Assembly (NCBI GenBank): GCA_945882615.1 | Contig: CAMCWK010000004.1 | Location: 1-64,000, forward strand | DNA: 64,000 bases | Source: Rhizobium sp. Q54 | GTDB taxonomy: Bacteria; Pseudomonadota; Alphaproteobacteria; Micropepsales; Micropepsaceae | Reading direction: 5' to 3' | Part shown: positions 11,551 to 60,014 of the stretch, piece by piece | Layout of the letters: each line of letters begins with the position of its first letter | Position numbering within the stretch: position 1 is the stretch's first letter | The notes under the pieces: generated by a model | The model's database searches: none | Told to the model about the DNA's origin: nothing | The model's input: only the letters and a program-made list of their open reading frames with translations | Made by a program: the position numbers and the translations under genes

Positions 11551-11630
11551 TGTCATGGCCCGCTTTATGCGGGCCACCCAGTTTTCTGCTAAGAACAAAC
11601 TGGATGGCCCGGACCAGCCGGGCCATGACA
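11551..11630. repeat. 80-bp palindromic element able to fold as a cloverleaf
   Basis: The outer arms TGTCA (11551-11555) and TGACA (11626-11630) pair. Between them are three self-complementary hairpins: TGGCCCGC/GCGGGCCA (11556-11576), CCAGTTT/AAACTGG (11578-11603) and TGGCCCGG/CCGGGCCA (11605-11625). It lies between mlaF and the next gene. Such GTCATGGCC...GGCCATGAC elements resemble the dispersed intergenic repeats of alphaproteobacteria. Both strands can fold, so it may act in RNA or DNA. Confidence 0.75.
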
Positions 11631-15597: not shown

Positions 15598-16308
15598 ATG
15601 ACGAAGATTATGGACGGGCGCATCGCGCTCATAACCGGTGCGTCGCGCGGCATTGGCCGCGCCGCGGCGCTGGCGCTGGCTGAGGCCGGCGCCCATGTCA
15701 TCCTGGTGGCGCGCACCGTGGGCGGGCTGGAAGAAACCGACGATGCCATCCAGAAGATCGGCGGCACCGCCACCCTGGTGCCGATGAACCTGCGCGATTT
15801 CGATGCCATCGACCGGCTGGGCGCCTCGATCTATGAGCGCTGGGGCAAGCTGGACGCGATGCTGGGCAATGCCGGGGTGCTGGGTCCGCTGACGCCCTTG
15901 GCCCAGATCACGCCCAAGAATTTCGCCGAAGTGATGGACGTCAACGTCATCGCCAACTGGCGCCTGATCCGCTCCATGGATCCGTTGCTGCGCCAGTCCG
16001 ATGCGGGCCGCGTGCTGTTCGTTTCCAGCGCCGCCGCGCAAAAACACACGCCCTATTGGGGCGGCTATGCCGTTAGCAAGGCGGCGCTGGAAATGCTGGC
16101 ACTGACCTATGCCGCCGAATGTCGGGAAACGCCCGTCAAGGTCAACCTGCTCAATCCGGGCCCGATGCGCACCGCGATGCGGGCCAAGGCGATGCCGGGC
16201 GAGGACCCCGCGACCCTGCCCACACCAGACCAGATCGCGCCGCAGATCGTGGATATGCTGTCGCCGTCCTTTGGGACCAGCGAAACCATTGCAAATTTTC
16301 GCCGATAG
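15598..16308 (+). CDS. SDR-family NAD(P)-dependent oxidoreductase
   Basis: The 236-residue Rossmann enzyme has the nucleotide-binding motif TGASRGIG, the NAG motif (LGNAGVLGP), the catalytic Ser in FVSSAAAQ and Tyr-Lys in GGYAVSKAA. It is a classical short-chain dehydrogenase/reductase. The substrate is unknown. It follows purF by 9 bases and is probably in the same transcript; purF-SDR linkage recurs in alphaproteobacteria. Confidence 0.85.
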   Translation: MTKIMDGRIALITGASRGIGRAAALALAEAGAHVILVARTVGGLEETDDAIQKIGGTATLVPMNLRDFDAIDRLGASIYERWGKLDAMLGNAGVLGPLTPLAQITPKNFAEVMDVNVIANWRLIRSMDPLLRQSDAGRVLFVSSAAAQKHTPYWGGYAVSKAALEMLALTYAAECRETPVKVNLLNPGPMRTAMRAKAMPGEDPATLPTPDQIAPQIVDMLSPSFGTSETIANFRR

Positions 16309-16319
16309 TCGAACCCATT

Positions 16320-16468
16320 TGTCATCCCCGGCGAGCGGCGTAGCCGCGAGGGAGTTCGTAGCGGCAGCGTACGAACGATCCAACTTTTTTTGAATAGTTG
16401 GCTCGTTTCTGCACAGCTGGATTCCCTTCCCCTCACGCGGCATTCGCCGCGTTCGGCCGGGAATGACA
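16320..16468. repeat. 149-bp multi-hairpin intergenic element
   Basis: The ends pair: TGTCATCCCCGGC (16320-16332) with GCCGGGAATGACA (16456-16468), one mismatch. Inside are GCGGC/GCCGC (16335-16347), GTTCGTA/TACGAAC around a GCGGCAGCG loop (16354-16376), CCAACT/AGTTGG (16380-16401) and ACGCGGC/GCCGCGT (16435-16452). It fills the whole space between the convergent SDR and der genes, and may also serve as a bidirectional terminator, although no clear U-tract follows. Confidence 0.75.
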
Positions 16469-16469
16469 G

Positions 16470-17909
16470 TTATTTCCTCGGTTTCGGCGCGTAGGGATTC
16501 TTGCTGTTGCGCACCGAAAAGCGCAGCGGCGTGCCCTTGAGATTGAAGTTTTCCCGCAGGCCGTTGGACAGGTAGCGCAGGTAAGCCTCGGGCAGGGCGT
16601 CGAGCTGGTTGCCGAACAGGGTGAAGCTGGGCGGCCGGGCCTTCCTCTGGGTCATGTAGCGGATACGCACCCGCCGTCCGCTGATCGCGGGCGTGGCATG
16701 GCGCTGCAGCGCCCCTTCCAGAAAGCGGTTCAAGGTTGAGGTCGAGATACGCGTGTTCCAGGCCTTGTCGGCTTCAGTGACGGCATCCGCCAGCCGGTCG
16801 ATGCCTTCGCCGGTGCGCGCGGAGGTGGCGATCAGCGGCGCGCCGGCGATCTGCGGCAGCAATCGGTCCAGCTTTTCGCGCATCCGCGAAATACCGCCTG
16901 CCTTGTTCTCCAGCAGGTCCCATTTGTTGACGGCAAAGACGATGGCGCGGCCTTCGCGGGCGATCATGTCGGCGATGGTGAGGTCCTGTTTCTCGAACGG
17001 CGCATTGGCGTCGATCATCACGATGACGCAGTCGGCGAAGCGTATGGCTTCCAGCGTGGAGGCCACTGACATCTCTTCCAGCGTCTCGCCCGCCACCCGC
17101 GCCTTCTTGCGCAGGCCCGCCGTGTCGTGCAGCAGCACGTCGCGGTCCCCCGCCTTCCAGGGCGCGGTGATGGAATCGCGGGTCAGTCCGGCTTCCGGCC
17201 CCACCAGCGAGCGCTCCTCGCCCAGAAGATGGTTGAACAGGCTCGACTTGCCGACATTGGGGCGGCCTACCAGCGCCAGCCGCAAGGGCCGGTCGAGATA
17301 GTTGACGGTGATGTCTTCCAGCGGCTCGTCGTCTTCGGAGAACTCGTCTTCCTCCTCCTCGATGTCTTCGCTGTATTCTTCGTCTTCCTGCTCGCCGTCT
17401 TCTTCCTGGTTGGCTTGCGCCTTGGGGACCAGTGCTTCCAGCGCCGCCACCAGATCTTCCATGCCCAGATTGTGTTCGGCGGAGATGCGGATGGGATCGC
17501 CCAGTCCCAGGCCATAGATTTCAGCCGGGGTCTCCACCCGACCTTCGCATTTGTTGGCCGCCAGGATGACCGGCTTGCCGGACTTACGCAGGGTCTGGGC
17601 GATGATCTGGTCACCCGCGGTGATCCCGGCGCGGGCGTCGATCAGGAACAGCAGCGCCTCGGCTTCCGCAATGGCGGTGATGGTCTGCTGGGTCATGCGA
17701 TGGGCGATGCTGCCGGTGATGGCGTCTTCGAAACCGGCGGTGTCGATCAGCGTCAGCGCGATGCCTTCATACTCGGCATCCACCGCCTGGCGGTCGCGGG
17801 TGACGCCCGGCGTGTCATGCACGATGGCGGCGGTGCGTCCGGCAAGGCGGTTAAAGAGACGGGACTTGCCCACATTGGGGCGCCCGACAATGGCTAGCTT
17901 TAATGGCAT
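16470..17909 (-). CDS. der: Ribosome-assembly GTPase Der (EngA)
   Basis: Der has two tandem GTPase domains and a C-terminal KH-like domain and is needed for 50S subunit maturation. Both G1 motifs are visible (GRPNVGKSRLF near residue 8 and GRPNVGKSSLF near 213), as are the G3 DTAG and G4 NKCE/NKWD motifs. The 479 residues include an unusually acidic linker (about 170-205, rich in Glu/Asp) between the domains. The first P-loop has Arg (codon 17859-17861) where Thr is usual after GKS. It is the last gene of a yfgM-bamB-der unit, the same order as in E. coli. Confidence 0.95.
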   Translation of the reverse strand: MPLKLAIVGRPNVGKSRLFNRLAGRTAAIVHDTPGVTRDRQAVDAEYEGIALTLIDTAGFEDAITGSIAHRMTQQTITAIAEAEALLFLIDARAGITAGDQIIAQTLRKSGKPVILAANKCEGRVETPAEIYGLGLGDPIRISAEHNLGMEDLVAALEALVPKAQANQEEDGEQEDEEYSEDIEEEEDEFSEDDEPLEDITVNYLDRPLRLALVGRPNVGKSSLFNHLLGEERSLVGPEAGLTRDSITAPWKAGDRDVLLHDTAGLRKKARVAGETLEEMSVASTLEAIRFADCVIVMIDANAPFEKQDLTIADMIAREGRAIVFAVNKWDLLENKAGGISRMREKLDRLLPQIAGAPLIATSARTGEGIDRLADAVTEADKAWNTRISTSTLNRFLEGALQRHATPAISGRRVRIRYMTQRKARPPSFTLFGNQLDALPEAYLRYLSNGLRENFNLKGTPLRFSVRNSKNPYAPKPRK

Positions 17910-59048: not shown

Positions 59049-59870
59049 GTGATCGCGCCCAGCCCCGAAGACGAAGCCGCCCTCGACGCCACCAAGGCGC
59101 CGCTGATGGAACATCTGCTGGAGCTGCGCAAGCGGCTGATCTGGGCCGTGATCTCGTTCGGCCTGTGCTTTGTCATCTGCTTCGCCTTCTCGACGCAGAT
59201 CTTCAACATCCTGACGGCCCCGCTGCACGACGCGCTGAGAGGCAGGTCCAACGATCACATGATTTACACGGCCCTGACCGAGGTGTTTTTCACCAAGGTC
59301 AAGATCGGCATGTTTGGCGGCATCTGCCTGGGCTTTCCCGCCATCGCCGCGCAATTGTGGATTTTCGTGGCGCCGGGCCTCTACAAGCACGAGAAGAACG
59401 CCTTCTGGCCCTTTTTGGTCGCCACGCCCTTCATGTTCGCGCTGGGGGCCTGCTTTGTCTATTTCATCATGCTGCCTTTCTCGATCATGTTCTTTGCCGG
59501 CTACCAGACGGCGACCACCGACAGCGCGATCGGCATCGAGCTGCAGGCCAAGGTCAGCGAATATCTGAGCTTGGTGATGACGCTGATTTTTGCCTTCGGC
59601 CTGACCTTCCAGCTGCCGGTGCTGTTGTCGCTTCTGGGCAAGGTAGGAATCGTCACCAGCGCTGGCCTGCGCGAGATGCGCCGCTATGCCATTGTCGGCC
59701 TGTTCGCGGTGGCGGCGATTTTCACCCCGCCCGACGCGATCTCCATGCTGGCATTGGCAGTGCCGCTGGTGCTGCTTTACGAGATTTCCATCTTCAGCGT
59801 GAAGATGATCGAGCGCACCCGGGCAAAGGAAGATGCTGCGCGCGCCGCCAAGGATCTCACGCCCGCCTAG
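59049..59870 (+). CDS. tatC: Sec-independent translocase subunit TatC
   Basis: The 273-residue protein has six membrane helices. It has the N-terminal signature MEHLLELRKRLIWAV with the conserved Glu, and the second loop segment FTPPDAISMLALAVPL. TatC recognises the twin-arginine signal peptide. GTG 59049 is the likely start, 10 bases after tatB. The C-terminal tail is Lys/Arg/Ala-rich. Confidence 0.94.
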   Translation: MIAPSPEDEAALDATKAPLMEHLLELRKRLIWAVISFGLCFVICFAFSTQIFNILTAPLHDALRGRSNDHMIYTALTEVFFTKVKIGMFGGICLGFPAIAAQLWIFVAPGLYKHEKNAFWPFLVATPFMFALGACFVYFIMLPFSIMFFAGYQTATTDSAIGIELQAKVSEYLSLVMTLIFAFGLTFQLPVLLSLLGKVGIVTSAGLREMRRYAIVGLFAVAAIFTPPDAISMLALAVPLVLLYEISIFSVKMIERTRAKEDAARAAKDLTPA

Positions 59871-59894
59871 CGGTCTTTTTGCCCCCTGGCGCTC

Positions 59895-59963
59895 GTACGC
59901 TGTTGCTACAAGCCGCTCGTCGCTCATGGGCTGTTAGCCCGTCCATAGCGGCAGCGTATGGAC
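59895..59963. repeat. Hairpin-rich intergenic repeat sharing a motif with 16354-16376
   Basis: Three short palindromes lie in the 144-base gap after tatC: GTACGCTGTTGCTAC (59895-59909, whose complement reads GTAGCAACAGCGTAC), GGGCT/AGCCC (59928-59940) and GTCCATA-GCGGCAGCG-TATGGAC (59941-59963). A fourth, TGGCC/GGCCA, is at 59976-59988. The third has the same 9-base loop as the hairpin at 16354-16376 but different stem bases. Confidence 0.7.
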
Positions 59964-60014
59964 GCTCCTCGCTCCTGGCCAGCGGCCAAAAATCCTCGCT
60001 AGGTGCTTTATTGC

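Follow-up and report, generated by a model that had tools for sequence, protein, structure and literature searches.

A mosaic doublet of expanded-loop, TGTC-tagged REP palindromes between two convergent genes

The 149-bp element at 16320-16468 of the window (the whole 64,000-nucleotide stretch of DNA that was analysed) is identified, with good support, as a REP doublet of the CGTC/TGTC-tagged class. It belongs to a family that is dispersed through the genome, whose pairing follows single halves and whose members exchange modules; its own site is empty in close relatives, and junctions that hold the family in this genome are recurrently occupied in others. With a probability of about 0.6, we favour the reading that it is a composite REP pair that is mobile and gives both of the converging mRNAs a hairpin at the 3' end; its mover and its function are what we infer. 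The element and its neighbours are made up as follows.

16320-16468, no strand assigned: whole element, 149 bases, a mosaic copy in which two expanded-loop TGTC-tagged REPs stand head to head
16320-16382, plus strand: left half, mosaic, of type B (one C; C at position 7)
16335-16347, plus strand: variable hairpin of the left half, GCGGC-GTA-GCCGC, read from the sequence
16354-16376, plus strand: 23-nt hairpin module GTTCGTA-GCGGCAGCG-TACGAAC, in the place of AGGG in plain halves
16383-16417, no strand assigned: 35-nt spacer, which with the flanking tail gives the hairpin CCAACT/AGTTGG (16380-16385 with 16396-16401)
16418-16468, minus strand: right half, type A (CC with GGGG), a plain unit matched by model R1
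16435-16452, minus strand: variable hairpin of the right half, ACGCGGC-ATTC-GCCGCGT as read on the plus strand
15598-16308, plus strand: putative SDR-family gene directed towards the element (ORF and gene call)
16470-17909, minus strand: presumed der, directed towards the element (ORF and gene call)

The two genes face each other across the element, the convergent setting described in the initial annotation. The plus-strand gene is assigned to the SDR family by a name taken from its residues as read, and the minus-strand gene we take to be der, for a two-domain GTPase, as did the initial annotation. The element starts 11 nt past the SDR stop codon, which ends at 16308, and lies 1 nt from the der end (16470, minus strand), so that it does abut the der stop as had been noted. 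Its exact ends, TGTCATCCCCGGC at 16320-16332 and GCCGGGAATGACA at 16456-16468, are 92% complementary, and the four internal stems reported along with these paired ends were all recovered: 16335-16339/16343-16347 as read from the sequence, 16354-16360/16370-16376 and 16435-16441/16446-16452 as computed arm pairs, and 16380-16385/16396-16401 within a longer computed arm pair, I2. Model R1 matches the right half with 70.2 bits (E 1.3e-13) and the mosaic left half weakly (18.9 bits, 16320-16358 only). A likeness had also been drawn to an 80-bp element at 11551-11630, and it holds, both being head-to-head dimers of TGTC-tagged palindromes. The smaller element is a canonical short-loop dimer a few bases past a TGA stop, and its exact arm pattern is found once in the genome.

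None of 200 shuffles folds as well as the element region, whichever strand is taken (z -6.29 and -5.39), and the lowest-energy fold of the region has the two outer ends paired together. On its own the 23-nt module has a fold energy of -9.8 kcal/mol. The mosaic left half gives two hairpins in tandem (energy z -1.67, with 11 of 200 shuffles equally good), and for two plain halves that were tested the predicted fold is the structure as drawn.

Other identities were considered as well. A known RNA family was rejected, as a search of the window against Rfam release 15 gave no match at the gathering score. A simple scan of 16309-16469 for an intrinsic, bidirectional terminator (a G+C-rich hairpin followed by a T tract) found none. 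A protein-coding role was excluded as the top-scoring gene calls stop at 16308 and 16470; longer antisense ORFs do span the region, and the codon model did not select them. A relation of GGGAAGGG to the FtsK motif KOPS was considered and set aside: the doublets are inverted and hence not polar.

It is clear from covariation among copies that the conserved pairing lies inside each half and that the two halves fold independently. The plain unit reads TGTC-ATTCCC-GG-C(C)-GA-hairpin-GA-GG-(G)G-AA-GGGAAT-CCA. Its 6-bp stem encloses a purine-rich internal loop, conceivably of tandem G.A geometry, then 1-2 bp and an inner hairpin. The unit comes in two types, A (CC with GGGG) and B (C with GGG). In all 51 scorable halves (23 A and 28 B) both sides agree in type, and disagreement is seen in 39 of 51 comparisons between halves. 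Position 7 behaves in the same manner; within halves it is T-A in 41, C-G in 8, G-C in 1 and a T-G wobble in 1, and in combinations between halves it is Watson-Crick in 33 of 51 and not so in 18, of which 9 are T-G. A broader selection, made with a pattern in which X is free and from which mosaic halves drop out, has 148 distinct halves; type agrees in 147 of them and position 7 is Watson-Crick in 144.

Across 33 aligned plain halves 98.3% of cells are paired, and the stem of the variable hairpin covaries; there are 67 cells with double changes against a shuffle mean of 13.1, a number reached by 0 of 500 shuffles, and sliding the structure lowers pairing to 20.5-47.9%. Columns 5-6 pair with 54-55 in 32 of the 33 halves each, the terminal CCA is present in 33/33, and the TGTC tag in 33/33 as well as at both ends of the element at 16320-16468. 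Covariation among copies, which the initial annotation had proposed to look for, is therefore present, and it lies inside the halves. One long hairpin through the outer ends was rejected as the conserved structure, pairing between halves being without covariation. Neither the half-wise folding nor the known REP superfamily figured in the initial annotation.

The family was defined from searches of the 2.85-Mb genome. By blastn, a 153-nt query has 76 matches (E<=10), of which the weakest are no better than chance. The outer arm GTCATNCCCG has 121 sites against 7 for a reversed control, and the inner hairpin has 15 places within 3 mismatches against 0 for its control; arms and modules are thus repeated and not unique to this element, and the condition that would have refuted the initial annotation does not hold. 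There are at least 24 strict doublets among the loci fetched and, by a looser definition, at least 28 in the genome, counted from the GTCATNCCCG places listed and after three overlapping hits of one cluster were merged into one. A doublet consists of two units with their tails inward and a spacer of mostly 25-31 nt. Single hits number 16 against the 28 doublets, and 7 of the 16 are inside called genes and may be chance. A/B heterodimers make up 21 of the 28 doublets, where a fraction of 0.49 would be expected (p = 0.005, an optimistic value as copies share descent), an excess that suggests that the doublet is the copied unit. A simple copied doublet leaves unexplained the change of spacer at site L205 in relative G015.

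At that site the variable hairpins are identical, and the spacer differs in G015 (L334) and is retained in G057 (L332); arms and spacer seem to have been exchanged separately. Contig C7 of this genome (G000; L242-L247) is 110 kb long, or 3.9% of the total, and has 7 of the 27 doublet loci (p = 6e-5), several of them with a common spacer bearing ACAAGCGCAG; the cluster is probably a recent local spread. In genome G013 a single contig carries 11 of the 13 strict arms, in a span of about 215 kb. Beyond this genome, model R1 has at least one match in 46 of 60 congener genomes (E<=0.001), and among the matches listed, from which records close to this genome may be left out, right arms in named Alphaproteobacteria fall mostly in Microvirga and also in Chelatococcus, Labrys, Enterovirga and MAGs.

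The suggestion in the initial annotation that such elements are mosaics of smaller modules is borne out by the places in which the 23-nt hairpin sits. As GTTCGTAGCGGCAGCGTACGAAC it is found in the arms of family members L002, L003 and L009; in these and in the element at 16320-16468 the core TAGCGGCAGCGTA hairpin is in the 3' arm, where it replaces AGGG or a similar sequence. Three other settings also contain it: the loop of L183, a canonical CGTC-type REP; the variable hairpin of L187; and a multi-hairpin repeat distinct from these (L180, L182, L184 and L186). The core varies, with G or A, and the stems differ among copies with both sides changing together. Sites compared with relatives show the exchange as well: at L022 a plain half in this genome corresponds to a module-bearing half in G057 with an identical variable hairpin, and at L003 the module is in the right half here and is lacking in G055 and G057. 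The core matches in 5 of 115 genomes, at 19 places here and 1 in each of four others (reversed control, 0 to 5 per genome); it is not spread through the class.

A larger insert, roughly 80 nt long and made up of several hairpins, is common to two doublets of about 205 bp (L051 1500-1707 and L054 1500-1703); it occupies the place in the arm that the 23-nt module takes in other copies. In the window itself, at about 59870-60003, there is a copy of the other multi-hairpin repeat with the module as TCCATAGCGGCAGCGTATGGA at 59942-59962; it has sister copies at L180, L182 and L184, and one at L230 that is without the module. The L180 copy has a fold energy of -60.8 kcal/mol (z -6.3).

Relatives of Der were found in 60 of 60 genomes, and 30 loci were examined, our own included. 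In the closest relatives examined the der/SDR junction is empty: in G055, G057 and G015 (Der identity 96%, 95% and 90%) the two stops overlap by 4 nt or touch. The element is therefore probably a recent insertion. Its recent arrival is likely from this comparison, with loss in the relatives as the alternative; no target-site duplication was seen at the junction. In G012 there are 3 nt between the stops. Elsewhere the same junction is filled in different ways, with an expanded mosaic element in G016 that has its module in the half beside der, canonical TGTC-tagged dimers in G072 and G045, a similar dimer without the TGTC tag in G071, a remnant in G047 and, in G063, a related small module without a REP. 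At the remaining loci the gap is 0-30 nt, or it holds another gene or a different type of hairpin; one locus was cut off by the end of its contig, and in three no SDR gene was seen.

This recurrence is not confined to der. At convergent junctions occupied in this genome, a tagged REP is present in 27 of 49 informative cells from six relatives, against 1 of 32 for control junctions that are REP-free here (p = 4e-7); by junction, a REP is found in relatives at 10/10 occupied against 1/12 control junctions, the control set being small, partly fetched and confined to a single contig, and the cells of a given junction not being independent of each other. The REPs in relatives often belong to another class. 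When only canonical elements are counted, with cells holding an expanded element and two unclassified cells left out, the difference is still seen (9/31 against 1/32, p = 0.005). The gap limits in the main comparison were 480 nt for the occupied set and 400 nt for controls; a limit of 400 nt for both gives 25/46 against 1/32 (p = 7e-7).

The occupied cells were drawn from 11 junctions in 6 relatives (66), of which 54 had both flanks and 49 were counted, 5 having a gene or a gap above 480 nt; site L224 gave none. For the controls (30 loci from the search and 15 chosen stretches), 15 junctions in 6 relatives gave 90 cells, 34 with both flanks, of which 2 were set aside, leaving 32; in two of the controls, overlaps of 42 and 21 nt probably reflect miscalled genes. 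Of ten further occupied junctions nine were informative, and these too range from empty sites to expanded and canonical elements. As a background rate, 200-kb stretches have tagged hairpins in 9 of 33 convergent junctions in G016 and in 2 of 32 in this genome, and contig C7 has them in 5 of 16; the REP detector used also calls a hit in 1-4% of junctions when these are shuffled. Two hits, one at L010 in G012 and one at a junction of 359 nt in G016, were not assigned to a class and may have arisen by chance.

The doublets in this genome are themselves concentrated at such junctions. By gene calls from a home-made codon model, 18 of 28 are convergent, against a baseline of 19 convergent among 120 gene pairs in the window and contig C7 (p = 8e-7); 7 others lie between tandem genes and 2 between divergent ones, and 1 is within a called gene. 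Many convergent copies lie within 12 nt of a stop on both sides, and some are farther away. That 10 of the 28 are not called convergent counts against the reading favoured here, as does the failure to find a terminator, a target-site duplication or a mover.

The mismatches in the variable stems are biased by strand. When 125 halves, taken from this genome, from congeners and from named genomes, are read on their TGTC-to-CCA strand, these stems contain 804 Watson-Crick pairs, 27 G.T, 2 A.C and 19 other mismatches; by group, G.T against A.C is 10:0, 8:0 and 9:2, and after repeated events are collapsed it is 21:2 (p = 7e-5). The excess of G.T over A.C marks the TGTC-to-CCA strand as the one kept foldable, pointing to a single-stranded hairpin, either RNA or ssDNA. 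Between convergent genes, each transcript also runs in this sense through the first half that it reaches. Strand-biased mutation could be a source of the bias, and an enzyme that reads ssDNA would fit it equally.

In the reading we favour, two expanded-loop palindromes are set head to head round a short spacer, and a third hairpin module has replaced part of one arm. The doublet would spread as a unit by a trans-acting single-strand mechanism other than a known RAYT. Each half would give the incoming transcript, that of the SDR gene on the plus strand and that of der on the minus strand, a stable hairpin directly past the stop; such hairpins may protect 3' ends and separate genes whose stops touch or overlap in relatives. 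The doublet would persist at convergent ends because each half supplies a 3' hairpin. More tentatively, some convergent gene ends of this lineage may be long-lived slots that need or draw in a two-way hairpin pair and in which REP classes replace one another, the palindromes being landing sites for modules, spreading without a RAYT and having halves kept in fixed polarity as single-stranded hairpins. Modules that pass between repeat classes in this way would be mobile elements inside mobile elements, a suggestion that is just as tentative.

The main rival to a 3'-end hairpin role is a purely selfish mobile palindrome. This would land on single strands in step with replication, convergent spots would be where it does least harm, and its fixed polarity would be read by an enzyme and be of no need to the cell. 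Presence and absence between close relatives and the build-up on contig C7 (7 of 27 loci) both favour it, and the one-strand signature is expected of an enzyme that reads ssDNA; on the other hand, it does not alone predict that junctions are refilled by different REP classes (9/31 against 1/32), and no Y1 transposase was found in this genome. We regard it as possible, though rather doubtful. It is much harder to accept that neither mobility nor an RNA role is involved and that copying from arm to arm, by template switching or gene conversion, leaves perfect hairpins as a by-product. Such copying would account for two features of the stems: they are nearly unique (122 distinct among 125), and 91% of their first five pairs are Watson-Crick, a share that drops to 58% if each arm is paired with one from another copy. 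However, it predicts no G.T excess (27 against 2 A.C) unless it is strand-biased, and the conserved unpaired tag, tail and internal loop are left unexplained; we consider it very improbable.

A RAYT-driven REPIN was rejected, the relation to a transposase being judged on the Y1_Tnp family alone. The Y1/RAYT transposase family PF01797 has no match in this genome at E<=0.01 and matches in 18 of 60 congeners, where copy number (model R1 at E<=0.001, counts being at least the values given) shows no relation to its presence (medians 11 and 11, p = 0.58). Of ten transposase loci fetched, nine are without an R1 match and one, L356, has two weak 27-nt matches. At 895-976 of that locus, which belongs to G003, two short inverted palindromes are less than 1 kb from a Y1 transposase gene; the G003 genome has no R1 match that reaches E<=0.001. 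A REPIN moved by a RAYT that has been lost from the genome, or that acts from elsewhere, would agree with the doublet architecture, which is that described for REPINs (PMC3116915), and with the occurrence of PF01797 in congeners; the same absence here, the unrelated copy numbers and the transposase loci count against it, and we think it unlikely.

Three questions about CGTC REPs were left unanswered in the available part of the survey by Di Nocera, De Gregorio and Rocco 2013 (PMC3733652): whether they are still mobile, by what they are moved, and for what reason heterodimers predominate. The present family makes these questions testable, as it offers a probable recent insertion, clean empty sites and no detectable Y1 transposase, and also a one-strand folding signature and junctions refilled by different REP classes. 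They become testable too in named genera with matching arms, such as Microvirga. A scattered family with related repeats at the same junctions elsewhere is thus a route to study the spread and role of REPs.

The CGTC-tagged superfamily, as set out in the available text of PMC3733652, comprises families CGTC-1 to CGTC-4, with a stem of 8-9 bp and a loop of 4-5 nt. Our halves have in common with it the unpaired TGTC/CGTC tag, the AT start of the stem and the CCA tail, the head-to-head dimers, often heterodimers, that lie near gene ends, the occurrence in alpha-proteobacteria and the lack of a dedicated transposase (judged here on Y1_Tnp alone). Unlike families 1 to 4, they have a stem of 6 bp, a variable hairpin instead of the short loop, and extra hairpin modules in the arm. 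Since tag, AT start, CCA and dimers match and the sizes of stem and loop do not, the family is best placed as an expanded-loop variant of the superfamily outside the four families; no description of it was seen among the openly licensed PMC papers listed by the searches. Neisseria dRS3 (CGTC-1 in PMC3733652) and Rickettsia RPE-6/RPE-4 (CGTC-4) are members of the same superfamily with short-loop units, compared here by their description in that source. A REPIN, from the portion of Bertels and Rainey 2011 (PMC3116915) available, is an inverted REP doublet with a spacer, predicted to fold as ssDNA or mRNA, and goes with a RAYT; our doublets are likewise two inverted REPs and a spacer, but differ in that a cognate RAYT (PF01797) was not found in this genome. 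The bacterial interspersed mosaic element (BIME), as treated in PMC3733652, likewise has paired REPs in a mosaic unit, whereas in our family the mosaic reaches inside a single REP arm, where the module replaces part of the stem.
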